From the IMG/VR virus record IMGVR_UViG_3300020205_002110, positions 1 to 44,893 of that record: DNA of 44,893 bases. One strand, written 5' to 3'. The notes beneath the pieces were generated by a model. That model saw only the letters and a list, made by a program, of their open reading frames with translations. It made no database searches and had not been told where the DNA came from. Of the stretch, positions 12,603-22,505 are shown piece by piece (position 1 is the stretch's first letter; each line of letters starts with the position of its first letter). This stretch comes from a virus. The position numbers and the translations under genes are program-made.

Positions 12603-12719
12603 TCACATGCCGCTCTGATACGGTTTCTTCACAGGCTTGGCGATCTTTGCGGCGTACTTCTTTGCCGCCTTCTTGCCTGCGGGAGTGTACGGAAACGATT
12701 TCTTTCCAACTTTGGGCAT
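12603..12719 (-). CDS. Small lysine-rich protein (38 aa)
   Basis: Reading MPKVGKKSFPYTPAGKK and on to KPYQSGM, 38 residues with about a third Lys. Its ATG overlaps the stop of the upstream gene (TGATG) and it ends 12 bases before the terminase start, so it is translated within the operon. The MPKVG-K-FPYT start is a pattern I have met in small phage proteins near terminase genes. The charge suggests binding to DNA or to acidic head proteins. Nothing more can be said of function. Confidence 0.6.
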   Translation of the reverse strand: MPKVGKKSFPYTPAGKKAAKKYAAKIAKPVKKPYQSGM

Positions 12720-13345
12720 CAAAGGGCCTCTCTCTGTGATTCGGTGTCATCTCGCATCTTGAGAAGGCGAGTTGCCGTCTCTTCCATGCGGATTCCATCA
12801 TCAGAATAGCGTTGCTCTGCCTCAATTGCACTACGCGACGGCAGAAGTTTAGCGTAAATCGAACCCCAGAACTGACTCTCGTTGACCGGGCTGCGCCGTG
12901 CCCACACCAGCATGCCCCACGCCTCACTACTCGGAGCGTCAGAAGGCAACACATCCTCCACCTGCATGTTGCTCGCGACCCATTCAACCACCTTGACCGT
13001 CGCAACCTTCTTCCCAGCGAACACAGCCTTCGTAGCAGCCTCACCCGCTTGCGCCGGCTTACTCACAACAGGCGCACTCTCCCCCTGCACCCCCTCTTGA
13101 TCCTGATCGGGTTCGCCCGCCAACGGCGCCGACCTGCCATGTGGCAGGTCAAGACGAGTCGAAGACTGACCGCCCACATTCCCCCACATCTCAGAGTCCA
13201 ACTCCCTCGCCGCCTCCAACCAAGCATCAGCAGGCGGCATCCCGTCCTTCTTCAAGCGTTCGCGCACATCCACGAACTGCTTCCAAAGGCCACTCTCTTC
13301 AGCCCACTTCCGGATCTGTACTTTGATTTGAGTTGAACCGCGCAT
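12719..13345 (-). CDS. Putative terminase small subunit or packaging accessory (208 aa)
   Basis: First gene of the leftward head operon, two genes before the large terminase, which is the usual place of the DNA-recognition subunit. The N-terminus is helical with VQIRKWAEESGLWKQF. A polar linker (Gln/Gly/Ser/Asp, about 60-105) leads to a helical C-terminal part ending EETATRLLKMRDDTESQREAL. No clear helix-turn-helix of the TerS type is seen, so the call is positional. The linker-coding DNA contains a perfect copy of the recurrent palindrome (13,131-13,150), which might be a recognition site. No ribosome site precedes ATG 13,345; a TGG-TAAACT extended -10-like element 6 bases upstream would give a leaderless message. 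Confidence 0.45.
   Translation of the reverse strand: MRGSTQIKVQIRKWAEESGLWKQFVDVRERLKKDGMPPADAWLEAARELDSEMWGNVGGQSSTRLDLPHGRSAPLAGEPDQDQEGVQGESAPVVSKPAQAGEAATKAVFAGKKVATVKVVEWVASNMQVEDVLPSDAPSSEAWGMLVWARRSPVNESQFWGSIYAKLLPSRSAIEAEQRYSDDGIRMEETATRLLKMRDDTESQREAL
13131..13150. repeat. Palindrome copy 2: GACCTGCCA-TG-TGGCAGGTC
   Basis: Nine-base perfect arms with a 2-base centre, the longest pairing after the terminator copy. Unlike the other full copies it lies inside a coding region (the putative small terminase), where it encodes RLDLPHGR on the minus strand. Confidence 0.8.
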
Positions 13346-13842
13346 GTCGGGAGTTTACCACAAGTCGGAATGCAGTCTCGGGAGGGGGTTAGATTAATGG
13401 TTTGTTGACCCCCCAGGTCCGGGTTCAGGCGCGGGCGCGCGCGCGCGTGGGCGGGCGGGCGCGATCGCGGGCCGCACGCGAGGGGCGCGACCTGCGGCGG
13501 CTGGCTCGATTTTTCCAGCGCGCACCGCCGCCCTTTGCACCTTTCACCAGGGCGCAGGGCGCGTCACCAGGGCGCAGGGCGCGGGCCGCCGAAGCCCACC
13601 CGAAGCACCGTGAAAGTGGGGATCCGAGGGTGGCACTTCGATGGCCTCGCCGTGCTTCGATGGCCGCCGCGCGCCGCGCCCGCGAAGCAAACGGCGCGCC
13701 TTCGACGGATGTACCCGTGCCATTCTGAGCCGCCCGCACCGATCCTATGAATTGTGCGGAGTCGATCCGCTACAAGCCGACAACCGTGATACACTTCAAT
13801 GCCGCAATTCTGCGGCTTCAAGCTCTCACCAAAGGCTCTTCA
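13346..13842. other. GC-rich divergent intergenic region, about 500 bp
   Basis: Lies between the leftward head operon and the rightward GC-rich island, so it should hold promoters for both. It starts with an AT-richer stretch (attaatggtttgttgacc) near 13,394 and then becomes extremely GC-rich with alternating GC runs near 13,430-13,470. It contains a perfect 20-bp tandem repeat and a short hairpin (gccgca-attc-tgcggc, 13,801-13,816) just before the AAA+ gene. Open frames here (for example 13,402-13,728 plus) have GC-driven composition and no credible protein features. The compositional jump marks the left edge of the island. Confidence 0.6.
13544..13583. repeat. Perfect tandem repeat, 2 x 20 bp
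   Basis: The 20-base unit beginning tcaccagggcgcag occurs twice head to tail (13,544-13,563 and 13,564-13,583) in the noncoding region before the AAA+ gene. It could be a binding-site array or simple slippage in GC-rich DNA. Confidence 0.85.
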
Positions 13843-14913
13843 ATGTCAACCGTGAACACGACCCCGCCCGCCCCCGCCAACGCCCTCGACGCATTGCTCG
13901 CGTCCCCTTCAATCGCCGCCATGATTTCCGTGGCCCCGCCGCTCGCCGCCGCCGCCGTGGCAGCGCGCGCCGAGCGTGGCCGCCTGATCACCGCCGCCGC
14001 CGCCGCCGCCGCGTCCCCCTTCGGCGCATCGGTTCCATCCGCCGATGGCCCCGCGCCGATCGTGCGCGCGCCGTGGGTTGGATCCGTACCCACCGCGCCG
14101 ACACACTTCACCGCGCCGCCCGCCTTCCTCACAAGGCTCCGCGTCCATGCCGAGGTGGGCCGTCCCGTCCTCTTGACGGGGCCGAGCGGTACAGGCAAGA
14201 CGGAAGCCGTGATGCTCACGGCCAACGCGCTAGGAAGAGCGTTCGTGAAGGTCGATTGCGGCCCCGTGCGCGAGAGTTCCGATTGGTTCGGCTCGCAGAC
14301 CATGACGGGCGGCCGAGTCGGTTGGCAGGATTCGACCCTTGTGGCGGCCCTCGAAACCGAGGGCGCAATCATCCTCCTCGACGAAGTGAACCGCGCGGCG
14401 ACCACCGCGCTAAACGGCTTGTTCGGAATTTTGGACGGGACGCGCGTGGCCCACTTCCCGCAGCGCGCCGAGGCCGTGCGCCTCGCCGATGGGGTCGCGA
14501 TCTTCGCCACGGCAAACATCGGTCTGAGCTACAGCGGGACGGGCGCGATCGATCGCGCATTTTCCAACCGCTTCACGACGATTCCGACCGACTACCTCGC
14601 ACCCGAAGACGAGGCCGCACTACTCCGCAAGCGATACACCGCGCTCCCCGTGACCACGGCGAACGCCATCGCGCGCATCGCCGCCCATACCCGTACCGCC
14701 GCATTCGTTGCAAGCGGAGGTGATGAGATTTCAACGCGGCAAGCATTGGTCTGCGCGGATATGGCGGTGGCGTTCGCCTTGAAGGGTCACGCCGAAGCCC
14801 TCGCCATTCAGGGGCTGATTGACTCACAATCCGCCGAGACGATGGGCGCGGCATCGTCGCCGCGCGCCGCCCTCTCCGCATTCGTGGCGCGCACTTTCCC
14901 TTCCTTCATCTGA
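13843..14913 (+). CDS. MoxR/CobS-type AAA+ ATPase (356 aa)
   Basis: Walker A GPSGTGKT (113-120), Walker B IILLDE (176-181), sensor-1 ATAN (N225) and the arginine-finger region DRAFSNRF (R238/R243) are all intact, so it should be an active AAA+ ring ATPase. The spacing and the LLDEVNRA after Walker B fit the MoxR/CobS group, whose members remodel complexes with a partner carrying a VWA domain; such a gene is two places downstream. The N-terminal ~80 residues are Ala/Pro-rich. I start at ATG 13,843 (AAAGG 7 bases upstream); an in-frame ATG at 13,747 would add 32 residues over a hairpin. The target is unknown. Confidence 0.85.
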   Translation: MSTVNTTPPAPANALDALLASPSIAAMISVAPPLAAAAVAARAERGRLITAAAAAAASPFGASVPSADGPAPIVRAPWVGSVPTAPTHFTAPPAFLTRLRVHAEVGRPVLLTGPSGTGKTEAVMLTANALGRAFVKVDCGPVRESSDWFGSQTMTGGRVGWQDSTLVAALETEGAIILLDEVNRAATTALNGLFGILDGTRVAHFPQRAEAVRLADGVAIFATANIGLSYSGTGAIDRAFSNRFTTIPTDYLAPEDEAALLRKRYTALPVTTANAIARIAAHTRTAAFVASGGDEISTRQALVCADMAVAFALKGHAEALAIQGLIDSQSAETMGAASSPRAALSAFVARTFPSFI

Positions 14914-14935
14914 CCCCCCAACCGAGACCCACACA

Positions 14936-16102
14936 ATGGCACACACCGTCACACTTTCACCCGCCGATACCATCGCGCTTTCCCCCGCTGCGGGTGGCAT
15001 CGCCACCGCCGTCCGCCGCCTCGCGGGTTCGGCCTTCCGCCCTCACTCATGGCCGACTGATGCTCGCGGATCAGTCACCGCCGCCGCCGCGTTCGTCGCT
15101 CGCGTGGGCTTCCCTTGCGACCTCGACCACGCGGGCAGCGTGACCATCGGCACACACCCTCGCGGGACAGCCGCGCACGGCTACGCGCCGTCCCTTCCCT
15201 CGCGCCTCGTCATCGTCGCCGTGGCCGTGGCCGATGCCGAAGGGGCATCGCCGCAACCGTATCTTGACCGAGCATATGACTTGCTCGCGGGCCTCTGCCT
15301 CTGCCACGGCAACCGCCGCGCGACTTTGCTTGGAACGATTTCAATGCACGGATTCGGCTTCACCATGTCGCGCATCGATCGCGCAACCGAAGGCAAGGTG
15401 CGCGCATTGTTCGCGATCGATCGCCGCAATGTCGAAGTACGCGCGGGGTTCGTGACTCGCCCGCAACGGTCGCTACATGACGGCGCGCTTCGCGTCCTCG
15501 CTGCGCAGTATGAAGCCGAGGCCGCCGATGCGACCCTGCCACCGCTCGACCGTGCGCGCCGAGTCGCTGCCGCAGCAAGAGCGGCGGGGGCTGGATGGAA
15601 AAAATTTACCGCATTCGGATCCGATGAATGCGGCGAAGCACTCGCGCTCTATGCCGAGGTGGCCGCCACCGATGACGGGTCCGAGGCGTGGGCGCGCTTC
15701 GCATCGCCGTCCGACAGAGCGAACATAGAGCGCGAGCCGAGCGGCGAGCCGAACAATGAGACAATGAGCCGCGCCGATGAGGACGCCGACAACGCGCGCT
15801 CCGAAGCCGAGAGCGCAGCGCGCACCGATCGCGAGGACGGATCCTCACCCGATGCGGATGCGTTTGCATCGGAGACGGGAGCGGAGGGCAAAGAACGCCG
15901 CGCCCGAGCGAAGCAATTGAAGGCCGCGCCGAAGGGTCGAAGCAAGGCCGACCAAGCCGCGAGCGAATCCGCCGAGGCCGCCGCCGTATCGAACGGGGCC
16001 GCCGCCGCCGCCGAGGTCGCGAGTCGATCCGAAGGCGGCGTAGATACCACCGCGAGCCGTCAACGCAACCGCGCGCCTAACGGCGTGATCCTCGCCGACT
16101 GA
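14936..16102 (+). CDS. Unknown protein with long acidic low-complexity tail; middle member of AAA+/VWA set (388 aa)
   Basis: Residues 1 to about 250 look globular: Ala/Val-rich with an RNVEVRAGFVTRPQ stretch and a helical RVAAAARAAGAGWKKF. From about 260 to the end the chain is Asp/Glu/Ser/Ala/Arg-rich and probably disordered. It lies between the AAA+ and VWA genes (22- and 34-base gaps), so the three are probably one unit. The cobaltochelatase subunit CobT has an N-terminal domain, an acidic disordered linker and a C-terminal VWA. This gene plus the next would match a CobT split in two; that is inference from architecture. No ribosome site is visible before ATG 14,936. Confidence 0.6.
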   Translation: MAHTVTLSPADTIALSPAAGGIATAVRRLAGSAFRPHSWPTDARGSVTAAAAFVARVGFPCDLDHAGSVTIGTHPRGTAAHGYAPSLPSRLVIVAVAVADAEGASPQPYLDRAYDLLAGLCLCHGNRRATLLGTISMHGFGFTMSRIDRATEGKVRALFAIDRRNVEVRAGFVTRPQRSLHDGALRVLAAQYEAEAADATLPPLDRARRVAAAARAAGAGWKKFTAFGSDECGEALALYAEVAATDDGSEAWARFASPSDRANIEREPSGEPNNETMSRADEDADNARSEAESAARTDREDGSSPDADAFASETGAEGKERRARAKQLKAAPKGRSKADQAASESAEAAAVSNGAAAAAEVASRSEGGVDTTASRQRNRAPNGVILAD

Positions 16103-16136
16103 CCAACACCAACACCAACACCCAAGGAATACCACC

Positions 16137-16928
16137 ATGCTCAAAGCGACAACCAACATCACACACAACGCCTCCGACTTCGCTGACGCGCGGCTCGCGT
16201 CCCTCGCCCTCAACGCCGAGGCCGCCGCTACCGCCGCCCTCCGCCGTGTCGGCGGCACGGCCGTCGAATGGGGCCGCCGCAGCGGCTCCCACTTGAACAC
16301 TTCGCGCCTTGCCGCCGCATCGCTCCCCGATGCCCGCGTGTTCGGTCGCCCCGCTCACGGCGACCGCCGCCCCGAGTGCGGCATCGTCACGCTCATCGAC
16401 TCATCGGGATCGATGGGGGCGGGCGTAGTCAAGGACGGCGCGTACATCGGCTCGCGCCGAAGGGTCGCCCGATCGATCGCCGTGGGCATCGCCGCCGCCG
16501 CGCGCCGATGCGGCCTCGCGTCGATCGTCGGCCACCACGGCGACAACGGTAAGGGACCCGAGTTGGTCGCGCACCGAACCACGCGCGGCGTTCTGAGCGG
16601 ACCAACCTACGGGGGTAACTCCGATGCGTGGGCGGTCGCCGAGTTCTGTCGGTTGGTGCAGATGCCCGCCGTGGCGACCGTGTTTGTGCTTGTGTGTGAC
16701 GGCTCCCCGAACGGCGACGAGGCCGAGCATCGCGCCGTGGCCGCCGAAGCCCTCGCATGGATGCGCCGATCGGGCGTGTCGTTCGTCCTCGCCTACATCG
16801 GCGACGATTCAATCGGCCTCGAACGCGCGCGCCTTGATTGGGGAGCGCAGCGCGTAGCCGACTGCCGCGCCGACATGACCGCGCTCACGGGCGTGATGAT
16901 CCGCGCCGTAGCCGCCGCGCGCCGCTGA
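16137..16928 (+). CDS. VWA (von Willebrand A) domain protein with intact MIDAS (263 aa)
   Basis: The metal-ion-dependent adhesion site is complete: DSSGS (D88, S90, S92), a threonine at T157 in GPTYGG, and an aspartate at D188 in LVCDGSPNGDE. After this comes a strand-helix order expected of VWA. The N-terminal ~80 residues are Ala/Arg-rich. VWA proteins paired with MoxR/CobS-type ATPases act as adaptors or substrates gripped through the MIDAS. AAGGA lies 8 bases before the ATG. A hairpin without a T-run follows 15 bases after the stop. No signal peptide or membrane segment is seen, so it is cytoplasmic or in the virion. Confidence 0.85.
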   Translation: MLKATTNITHNASDFADARLASLALNAEAAATAALRRVGGTAVEWGRRSGSHLNTSRLAAASLPDARVFGRPAHGDRRPECGIVTLIDSSGSMGAGVVKDGAYIGSRRRVARSIAVGIAAAARRCGLASIVGHHGDNGKGPELVAHRTTRGVLSGPTYGGNSDAWAVAEFCRLVQMPAVATVFVLVCDGSPNGDEAEHRAVAAEALAWMRRSGVSFVLAYIGDDSIGLERARLDWGAQRVADCRADMTALTGVMIRAVAAARR

Positions 16929-16942
16929 CGGTCCCCGCTAGC

Positions 16943-16973
16943 GCGCGCCCGCCCTCACCCGAGGCGGGCGCGC
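16943..16973. terminator. Strong GC stem-loop after the VWA gene
   Basis: Arms gcgcgcccgcc (16,943-16,953) and ggcgggcgcgc (16,963-16,973) pair over 11 bp with a 9-base loop. There is no T-run, so it may slow polymerase, protect the message end, or separate the AAA+/VWA genes from the next three. The 126 bases between genes otherwise show nothing. Confidence 0.5.
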
Positions 16974-17054
16974 CTAAGCGGCGACCGTTGGCATCGTGCC
17001 GCCGTGCGCCCGTTCGTGATAGGTGGGGCAACGCCCCGAGGATCGACTACACCG

Positions 17055-17765
17055 ATGGAACCCAACCCAAACACCCCCGACCCGTTCGAGTTCAACCCCG
17101 CCGATCACGGCGACCAACCCCAACCCGCGCCCTCTGGATCGAAAAAATTTCCCGCCGCGCCCGCGCCGATCCACGGTATCGCGGGGATCCTCGACCTGAT
17201 CCCGCGCGATGTACCTGACGGGATGTGGGCTTCGATCCTGTTGCCTGACGGAACGGGAGCCGAACACGCGCAGATGAGTGAAGTAGGCGTGGTCGTGCGC
17301 CGTGAGACGATCGCGGCATCCCTTGACCGTGTCGGCTTGAAGATGGCGAGTACGGACATCGACGCGCTGTTGGTTGCAACGGGCTACGCGCTGTCCGCCG
17401 TGACCGCGCACCTGATCGTTGGCGCGGTGCAATTCGCCGAAGCGCAGCGGGTAGTGCCGCCCGAAGTTCGCGAGAGCTTCGCCGAAACGGCGCGCCGTAT
17501 GGGGACGCTCGACGATCGGCTCGCGCCCGTCTTCCGCCTCATCAACAACCTCACCGCCGAGGGTAGCGATCCTGCGGAGCGCAGGGCGCGCGATACCCGC
17601 AATGAGATCATGGCGGGTAGCACCATCATGGGGACGCTTGTGCGAACCGATGGCCACCTGATCGCCGTTGGCTCCGCAATCGCCCTCGCCGCAACGGCGC
17701 GCCTCGCCCATGAATTGGGCGGGCGACTTGAGGAAGGGGAGGCCAACGATGGGTCAAGCGAGTGA
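17055..17765 (+). CDS. Unknown protein of the GC-rich island (236 aa)
   Basis: Not recognised. The first ~45 residues are Pro/Asn/Asp-rich and disordered (NTPDPFEFNPADHGDQP), then comes PIHGIAGILDLIPRDV and a mixed alpha/beta part. The C-terminal half is helical with Ala-rich segments such as TGYALSAVTAHLIVGAVQFAEAQ and HLIAVGSAIALAATARLAHEL, which are amphipathic or weakly membrane-seeking. I start at ATG 17,055; the in-frame ATG at 17,004 would add 17 residues and lacks a ribosome site. Its 3' end overlaps the start of the next, small membrane protein gene by 17 bases, so these two are coupled. Confidence 0.6.
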   Translation: MEPNPNTPDPFEFNPADHGDQPQPAPSGSKKFPAAPAPIHGIAGILDLIPRDVPDGMWASILLPDGTGAEHAQMSEVGVVVRRETIAASLDRVGLKMASTDIDALLVATGYALSAVTAHLIVGAVQFAEAQRVVPPEVRESFAETARRMGTLDDRLAPVFRLINNLTAEGSDPAERRARDTRNEIMAGSTIMGTLVRTDGHLIAVGSAIALAATARLAHELGGRLEEGEANDGSSE

Positions 17766-21573: not shown

Positions 21574-21694
21574 AATCGCCGAAGTAATCATTTCCATGAT
21601 CATCCTTGGATCGTGCGTTTATGCGCTTTACCGCTCTCTTGCACCAATTGTCGAAATGAAAGAAGAGGACGCGCATGACGATATCGAACATTGA
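21563..21694 (+). CDS. Small single-pass membrane protein (43 aa)
   Basis: Reads MHNEIAEVIISMIIL then GSCVYALYRSLAP and an acidic tail ending DDIEH. One hydrophobic helix of about 20 residues and an acidic C-terminus. It overlaps both neighbours (11 and 20 bases), as expected in this packed operon; the ribosome site (AAAGG, 9 bases) is weak. It could be a spurious frame. Confidence 0.4.
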   Translation: MHNEIAEVIISMIILGSCVYALYRSLAPIVEMKEEDAHDDIEH

Positions 21695-22505
21695 CCATTA
21701 CCTCATCGAAACACCGTTCGTTGTTTCGTTTAGCGGTGGTCGCACAAGCGCATTCATGCTTCGCAATATCCTTGACGCATACGGGGGTTCGTTACCTGCG
21801 CAAGGTCATGTGGTGTTTGCGAACACGGGCAAGGAACACCCTGCCACGCTGGACTTCATAAAGGAAATTGAAACGCGCTGGAGCGTTCCAATCCAATGGG
21901 TCGAGCGTGACTTCAAGAACGAAGCAGGGGTGCGATTGGTGAACTTTGATACCGCGTCCAAGAACGGCGAGCCGTTCGGAGACTTGATTACCAAGAAGCA
22001 CTACCTACCAAACCCCATCACTCGATTCTGCACAGAGGAACTCAAGGTCAAGGCGATCGCGAAGTACATGAAGAGCATCGGCGTTGAATCGGGAACTATG
22101 GCTGTCGGACTACGCGCTGATGAGCCGCGCCGAGTGCATCGCGTCAACGGAGATACTCGCAACGGATTCGACTATGTATGCCCAATGCACTCCGCTGGAC
22201 ATGTCATTGCAGATGTACTCGACTTTTGGAAGTCATCCGACTTCGACCTCATGTTGCCGAACAATGACCGCGCTTTCGGAAACTGTGATCTCTGCTTCTT
22301 GAAGGGCAGGAGCATCCTTGAACGAGTTATCAGGCACGACCCATCACTTGCCGATTGGTGGATCGAACGAGAGAAGGAAATCGGCGCGAAGTTCAGGAAG
22401 GACATTCCAACCTTCGCTCAGATGGTGGTTCAGATACGCATTCAGCCCGAACTGTTTGGTGAAGAAGATGACGATGACATCATCCCATGCCTCTGCACCG
22501 ACTAA
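21675..22505 (+). CDS. PP-loop / PAPS-reductase-family enzyme (276 aa)
   Basis: SFSGGRTSAFML (18-29) is the PP-loop that binds ATP pyrophosphate. It is followed by family-typical VFANTGKEHPATLDF, RFCTEELKVKAI and GLRADEPRR, with a C-terminal GNCDLCFLKG cysteine pair. The enzyme group covers adenylyl/phosphoadenylyl sulfate reductases, DndC (DNA phosphorothioation) and phage relatives of unknown substrate. With no DndD/E or sulfur-assimilation genes nearby, phosphorothioation is not supported. An adenylating enzyme in phage nucleotide, tRNA or DNA modification is possible. The cysteine pairs hint at an Fe-S cluster or thiol chemistry. Confidence 0.8.
   Translation: MTISNIDHYLIETPFVVSFSGGRTSAFMLRNILDAYGGSLPAQGHVVFANTGKEHPATLDFIKEIETRWSVPIQWVERDFKNEAGVRLVNFDTASKNGEPFGDLITKKHYLPNPITRFCTEELKVKAIAKYMKSIGVESGTMAVGLRADEPRRVHRVNGDTRNGFDYVCPMHSAGHVIADVLDFWKSSDFDLMLPNNDRAFGNCDLCFLKGRSILERVIRHDPSLADWWIEREKEIGAKFRKDIPTFAQMVVQIRIQPELFGEEDDDDIIPCLCTD

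Follow-up and report, generated by a model that had tools for sequence, protein, structure and literature searches.

A viral CobS-type ATPase and a stand-alone CobT-type VWA protein encoded around a protein of no known family: a candidate divergent AAA+/VWA remodeling machine

Viral cobST clusters have already been published, as has a CobT encoded by two ORFs in the haloarchaeal virus HHTV-2 (PMC8651126). Viral CobST is widespread. Its annotations mostly name a role in cobalamin synthesis or a peptidase, and the literature searched contained no functional test. Most such ATPases in the viral contigs searched are followed by a VWA protein, either fused with an HExxH domain or split in two. Besides HHTV-2, whose gp2 (355 aa) carries the HExxH motif LSHEVQHH and an acidic tail, split CobT is present in IMG/VR loci L114, L141, L144 and L151-L153, with HExxH in the first half in all of them; the split CobT-N proteins of other phages have 345-386 aa and acidic tails. 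In the related NorQ-NorD system, NorD consists of an N-domain, a disordered linker and a VWA domain (PMC9976466), and work on this system shows a VWA loop in the AAA+ pore with the MIDAS toward the target, and the N-domain as a second leverage point connected via the linker (PMC13036017, PMC9976466). Exchanging T534 and D562 of the NorD MIDAS abolishes cNOR activity, both Thr and Asp being required (PMC9976466).

The sequence analyzed here is an IMG/VR virus record of 44,893 bases, referred to as the window. It contains three adjoining ORFs, separated by 22 nt (ATPase/middle) and 34 nt (middle/VWA), which the original prediction considered a candidate undescribed module. This can be maintained for the present form, but not beyond it, viral cobST, two-ORF CobT and plasmid clusters of ATPase, DUF3150 and VWA genes being known. 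The features of the locus are collected in Table 1.

Table 1. Features of the locus in the window
Feature	Position	Strand	Basis or remarks
Small-terminase-position gene	12719..13345	-	Upstream of large terminase gene; kept upstream of termL in many loci
GC-rich divergent intergenic region	13346..13842	.	Between small-terminase-like gene (-) and ATPase (+); sequence
Predicted CobS-like AAA+ ATPase, 356 aa	13843..14913	+	PHROG 249, Pfam AAA_5, motifs, tree
Middle protein, 388 aa, no known family	14936..16102	+	Homologues in L012, L014, L074, L075
Predicted stand-alone CobT-type VWA protein, 263 aa	16137..16928	+	Alignment, structure model, Foldseek, CobT profile match
GC-rich hairpin, terminator-like, without U-tract	16924..16992	+	Folding energy -61.4 kcal/mol, z -5.67
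Fourth island gene, 236 aa, family unknown	17055..17765	+	Adjoins VWA gene also in G008/L074
Fifth island ORF, 153 aa	17865..18326	+	Weak helix-turn-helix (GerE/sigma-like) C-terminus

All three genes are coding and under purifying selection, since dN/dS values against the sister contig L012 were 0.26 for the ATPase, 0.37 for the middle gene and 0.44 for the VWA gene. They look like one transcription unit, because the strong hairpin that closes them begins at the VWA stop codon. A perfect 20-bp tandem duplication (13544-13583) was located by repeat search in the intergenic region upstream. The GC-rich island proposed around the three genes is real, with 0.66-0.71 GC per kb compared with ~0.55 elsewhere in the window, but it is larger than had been noted: it extends over ~13.4-18.55 kb, with a sharp GC step at either end, and holds two further ORFs. 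The first of these gave no match in Pfam, and in a pairwise comparison with its G008/L074 homologue it scored 100 (shuffles 38 +/- 6.6). The second had a Pfam GerE match of 0.004, under the curated cut-off, and is at most a candidate member of the module. An exonuclease gene and RecT are found a few kb downstream of the module. A general association of phage CobS-type ATPases with exonuclease/RecT genes was not supported: in 94 loci plus the window, such neighbors were limited to the plasmids and the sister locus L062, apart from a single weak exonuclease match (L106).

The proposal of a CobS-type ATPase with all its motifs intact was borne out. The best PHROG of the first gene product was 249 ('porphyrin biosynthesis', the cyanophage CobS family; 1.3e-32) and its Pfam match was AAA_5 (2.5e-17). 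Walker A (~14179-14202), Walker B (~14371-14385), the sensor 1 Asn (N225), the Arg finger (R243) and the sensor 2 Arg (R299) showed no variation in an alignment of five sister-phage sequences. In a tree of 79 ATPase domains, in which long branches were flagged and the finer branching is unsure, the sister-phage ATPases and the long-branch row L106 formed one clade within the viral CobS radiation. The viral CobS clade holding the window ATPase comprised 35 rows, with support of 100/99, and included ATPases adjoining a fused HExxH-VWA CobT, while the plasmid CobS proteins (L007-L009), the NorQ-like L163 and the ATPases of L041 and L062 fell outside it. The closest solved structures were midasin, NorQ, CbbQ and CobS, all from AAA+/VWA machines. 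Assignment of the first gene product as a CobS-type AAA+ ATPase nested in the viral CobS radiation is therefore supported at the level of sequence.

With respect to the third gene, a VWA protein with an intact MIDAS had been anticipated. The VWA fold, the D88-x-S90-x-S92 motif (16398-16412) and D188 are all there, but Asn161 occupies the position where Thr was expected. This residue is unchanged in the alignment of the three sister proteins that make up the VWA sample, and an Asn-type MIDAS (N at the Thr position, DGxP motif) is also present in L080, L116, L110 and L004, the last three of which belong to the 35-row ATPase clade together with the window. The variant is worth attention because NorD needs both the Thr and the Asp of its MIDAS. 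In Pfam the protein gave a sub-threshold CoxE match only and lies below CobT_C detection. Comparison by hhalign with a profile of 31 CobTs (27 fused and 4 split; nearly all viral, one from a plasmid) gave 98.8% and E 1.3e-16, and the profile of the four split VWAs gave 94.8%; hmmsearch with the 31-CobT profile matched all three VWAs at 1e-13 or better, E-values from such tiny search sets having a relative meaning only. The match takes in a CobT-type segment preceding the VWA domain (R..G..L[ND]...L....RVF.R). The value against NorD was 12.9%, but a single NorD sequence was used here, and this tests less powerfully than a profile does. A VWA fold was predicted in the structure model (pLDDT 63, pTM 0.72), and Foldseek matched this model to solved VWA domains. 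These results support the third gene product as a stand-alone VWA protein of the CobT type that retains the pre-VWA segment.

The middle protein is represented by five sequences, one of them partial, all from uncultured phages. The four long homologues align over ~256 residues, and the layout is that of a conserved domain (~1-256) followed by a variable, disorder-like tail (~257-388). Of the long, acidic, disordered tail originally described, the disorder-like character stands (132 aa, with 8% large hydrophobic residues), but the acidity is only mild (26 D/E vs 19 K/R). The tail would correspond in position to the linker of CobT, but it is not joined to the VWA domain. No match to the protein was obtained in Pfam, PHROGs, NCBIfam, PADLOC or PDB sequences, its AlphaFold model was poor (pLDDT 42), and HExxH is absent from the alignment. 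Comparisons by hhalign with the 31-CobT profile (0.1%, E 0.48, confined to 14 columns), with the CobT-N profile (0.2%) and with HHTV-2 gp2 (E 0.95) gave no support to the idea that this is the N-terminal half of CobT. As positive controls, N-domain profiles built from four CobTs that had been excluded from the target scored 99.6-100% against the CobT profile, HHTV-2 gp2 as a single sequence scored 96.8%, and the HExxH-less viral CobT L086 was marginal (22.9%, E 9e-4). Judging by these controls, the profiles among which were comparable in depth, an ordinary CobT N-domain would have been found. Consequently, of the claim that CobT has been cut into two genes, the half concerning the VWA protein is sustained, while the half concerning the middle protein is not.

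The simplest way to save that claim would be to regard the middle protein as a fast-evolving CobT zincin-like N-domain with the remnant of an acidic linker, which has lost HExxH. Its location between the ATPase and the VWA protein and its globular plus disordered build, like those of split CobT-N proteins elsewhere, would agree with this, as would the case of L086, a related viral CobT that has also lost HExxH and is only marginally recognizable. The middle protein may contain a strongly degenerated CobT N-domain. Nevertheless, the gap between its value and those of the like-depth controls, and the fact that split forms of other phages retain HExxH, make a simple split of CobT rather unlikely. 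What the sequences indicate is that the second gene fills the slot taken in CobT by the N-terminal zincin-like (HExxH) domain and the charged linker, with no detectable similarity to CobT. An orphan protein occupying the CobT-N slot is the new point of this locus, since viral cobST and split CobT were known before and novelty is limited to the present form.

The distribution of the module was analyzed among related viruses. Scans of viral contigs with patterns from each of the three proteins returned nothing, short exact peptides being prone to miss diverged kin, while a large-terminase scan yielded 53 related loci, which were compared using the small-terminase-position gene as synteny anchor. 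More distant relatives carry other cargo at the same genomic place. The ATPase gene was found upstream of the anchor in L012, L014, L018 and L021 (it is cut in L010) and also in G013 (L075), where, provided that the contig is circular, the gene order suggests an inverted orientation of the module with respect to the terminase. The contigs of L042, L011, L013, L016 and L023 end at the edge of the island. The middle gene follows the ATPase gene in all five contigs that extend far enough (window, L012, L014, G008 (L074) and G013), although the G013 (L075) protein is partial (score 64, shuffles 31 +/- 4.7), and the VWA gene comes next in 3/3 such contigs (window, L012 and G008 (L074)); in L074 the middle gene shares 4 nt with the VWA gene. 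The expectation that the three genes would occur together elsewhere was thus confirmed. Relatives of the middle or VWA proteins were not detected in bacterial or archaeal genomes by pattern-based alignment scans, which miss diverged kin. By these searches the middle protein appears solely in sister phages, and a wider spread is possible.

A recently acquired foreign cassette with a role in defense or anti-defense could be imagined from the sharp GC steps at 13.4 and 18.55 kb and from the different cargo found at this place in more distant relatives. However, the sister phages share both the module and the GC step at the same locus. Identities were 89, 83, 81, 77 and 77% for the terminase and 71, 57, 49, 49 and 44% for the ATPase, dropping in the same order, as vertical inheritance predicts. 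Where the core of a sister phage has 0.50-0.60 GC, the island has 0.62-0.72 GC, ~10 points richer. GC at codon position 2 was 0.51-0.60 in island genes vs ~0.44-0.47 in terminases, and in the GC3-rich sisters L021 and L023 the third-position contrast vanishes. Base composition is distinct, as had been pointed out, but it is not evidence of recent acquisition, because lower-GC sisters keep the richer island at the same place; it is an old inherited property of the island genes, with no sign of recent arrival. Given also that the PADLOC search produced weak ATPase-domain matches only, we consider a recent cassette very improbable.

Participation in cobalamin synthesis has also to be weighed, with the phage proteins hijacking host CobN as helpers of a cobaltochelatase. 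Such a role has been proposed for viral cobST (PMC8651126), and the window ATPase groups with those viral CobS proteins. Yet CobN was not found in the window or in four sister records, in a search for which positive control genomes were used, and a cobalamin riboswitch was looked for and not found, so that a cobalt-chelatase role is unlikely, although the host may have a CobN of its own. The N-domain of CobT is not recognizable either, and NorQ, CbbQ and midasin are machines of the same type that are not tied to corrins. Overall, boosting of host cobalamin synthesis seems quite improbable. Even less can be said for a phage-borne version of the plasmid/ICE-type module formed by an AAA ATPase, a DUF3150 protein and a VWA protein, which we regard as the least probable of the alternatives. 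The plasmid pALVIN02 shows the same three-gene order beside RecT and an exonuclease, which the window also has downstream, but on the plasmid the VWA protein is a complete CobT that includes the N-domain (Pfam CobT 1.3e-11), and the plasmid ATPases fall outside the clade of the window. DUF3150 as the identity of the middle protein was ruled out at the sequence level (hhalign 0.1%, E 0.71; no Pfam match).

The interpretation we favor, and hold to be probable, is that the three genes encode a divergent viral AAA+/VWA remodeling machine of the CobS/CobT type, in which the equivalent of CobT is distributed over two genes and the second gene supplies the target-recognition subunit. By analogy with NorQ-NorD, the ATPase would form a hexameric ring on which the VWA protein would dock, and the metal at the MIDAS would hold the target by one of its acidic residues. 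The conserved domain of the middle protein could provide the second target contact, as a recognition or adaptor subunit, with its disordered tail as the tether between this domain and either the ring or the VWA protein. Driven by ATP hydrolysis, the VWA domain would then turn against the second contact, which might pull open a protein complex of the phage or of the host. The sequences themselves show the families of the ATPase and the VWA protein, the gene order, the co-conservation and purifying selection of the genes, and the lack of a recognizable CobT-N domain. We infer complex formation, this mechanism and the role of the middle protein from the comparison with known machines, and likewise that the CobT N-domain has been either replaced or changed beyond recognition. 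In the mechanism proposed for NorQD, the linker that is stretched joins the N-domain covalently to the VWA domain, and the lack of such a link in the window counts against the proposed machine. More specifically, the recognition domain of a CobS/CobT machine could have been exchanged in this phage lineage for an unrelated protein acting as a separate subunit, a tentative idea with slightly more against it than for it. If true, the ATPase-VWA core would be a modular motor that can be re-aimed at a new target, and the recognition domain would not need to be covalently joined to the VWA.

That the motor and the VWA protein are kept without a recognizable CobT N-domain argues for protein remodeling, and not corrin chemistry, as the conserved function, and a small three-gene system such as this one is suited to testing it. 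The locus also bears on how force is transmitted in AAA+/VWA machines, the NorQD proposal needing a covalent linker that natural split systems do without.

Compared with known systems, the locus shares with NorQ-NorD, CbbQ-CbbO and midasin, which include the nearest solved ATPases, an AAA+ ring protein and a VWA/MIDAS partner, but in those machines the N-domain and the VWA domain are covalently linked and targets differ, and the NorD VWA is a weak match. More distant relatives of the phage (L062 and L041) likewise have an AAA+ ATPase and a partner at the same genomic place, although that ATPase belongs to a distant branch, the partner is DUF7192 and no DxSxS VWA gene was found there. The plasmid/ICE cluster of pALVIN02 also consists of three genes for an ATPase, an extra protein and a VWA protein, but its DUF3150 protein is unrelated to the middle protein and its VWA protein is a full-length CobT. 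Split viral CobTs (HHTV-2 gp2/gp3; L114, L141, L144, L151-L153) share the layout, with the VWA in an ORF of its own after a protein with a globular part and a disordered tail, but their N-half retains HExxH and is recognized as CobT, neither of which applies to the middle protein. The split in the lineage of the window is independent of that in the L114-L153 phages, because these lie in another half of the ATPase tree. A further comparison is with the viral CobST clusters (cyanophage CobS/'peptidase' CobT, Microcystis phage Mae-Yong1326-1, Druskaviridae/Saparoviridae; PHROG 249), where a CobS-type ATPase of the same clade is likewise followed by a protein with a CobT-type VWA. Their CobT is usually encoded by a single ORF and includes a zincin-like N-domain with HExxH as well as a long acidic linker, whereas in the window the VWA protein stands alone and an unrelated-looking protein takes the N-terminal slot.

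The place that holds the ATPase-middle protein-VWA protein module in the window has other gene content in other phages (see the table for coordinates). In the more distant relatives L062 and L041 it is taken by an AAA+ ATPase of 492 aa that differs from the ATPase of the window, and in L062 this gene is followed by one encoding a DUF7192 protein (Pfam, 7.9e-14), so that a second kind of ATPase-partner pair occupies the module locus there. In the relatives L028 and L030, a DUF7227 gene and small genes, rather than the module, occupy the GC-rich place. The locus looks like a cargo site.

Sister-phage contigs L010, L011, L013, L015-L017, L019, L020, L023 and L042 start around 100-900 bp upstream of the gene in the small terminase position, as if the GC-rich island were a breakpoint of their assemblies; among those stopping there, L042 has a terminase with 99% identity. 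In another contig, L075 (G013), the ATPase-middle gene pair points away from the gene that the window has downstream of its island (compared with L023), as if the module were inverted, an arrangement that is unproven because the sequence of L075 breaks off within the middle gene.

Both in the window and in sister phages, short GC-rich tandem repeats lie in intergenic stretches of the island. Elsewhere in the window, a gene resembling phosphoadenosine phosphosulfate reductase lies between an exonuclease gene and a RecT-like gene.

Features of the window and of the compared viral loci
Feature	Location	Details
GC-rich short tandem repeats	window 13544-13583	intergenic, island
GC-rich short tandem repeats	L074 3682-4203	intergenic, island
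GC-rich short tandem repeats	L075 about 1424-1700	intergenic, island
Phosphoadenosine phosphosulfate reductase-like gene	window 21675-22505	PHROG 424, 4.9e-52
AAA+ ATPase/partner region	L062:4710-7140	upstream of terminase, same place as module; more distant relative
AAA+ ATPase region	L041:420-1682	upstream of terminase, same place as module; more distant relative
DUF7227 gene	L028:5577-6275	Pfam match
DUF7227 gene	L030:6106-6798	similar to L028 copy by eye
One-piece viral CobT without HExxH	L086:8796-10826 (and L087)	
Split CobT	L114:8765-10621	HExxH half + VWA half
Split CobT	L141:5496-7345	HExxH half + VWA half
Split CobT	L144:8734-10683	HExxH half + VWA half
Split CobT	L152:6490-8441	HExxH half + VWA half
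Split CobT	L151 and L153	HExxH half + VWA half

Other viral CobT proteins depart from the usual form. That of L086 (and L087) has lost HExxH and its N-domain is recognisable only marginally; the CobS adjoining it shows 37% identity to the ATPase of the window. A natural split of CobT was found in the uncultured phages L114, L141, L144, L151, L152 and L153, in addition to the case published for the haloarchaeal virus HHTV-2.
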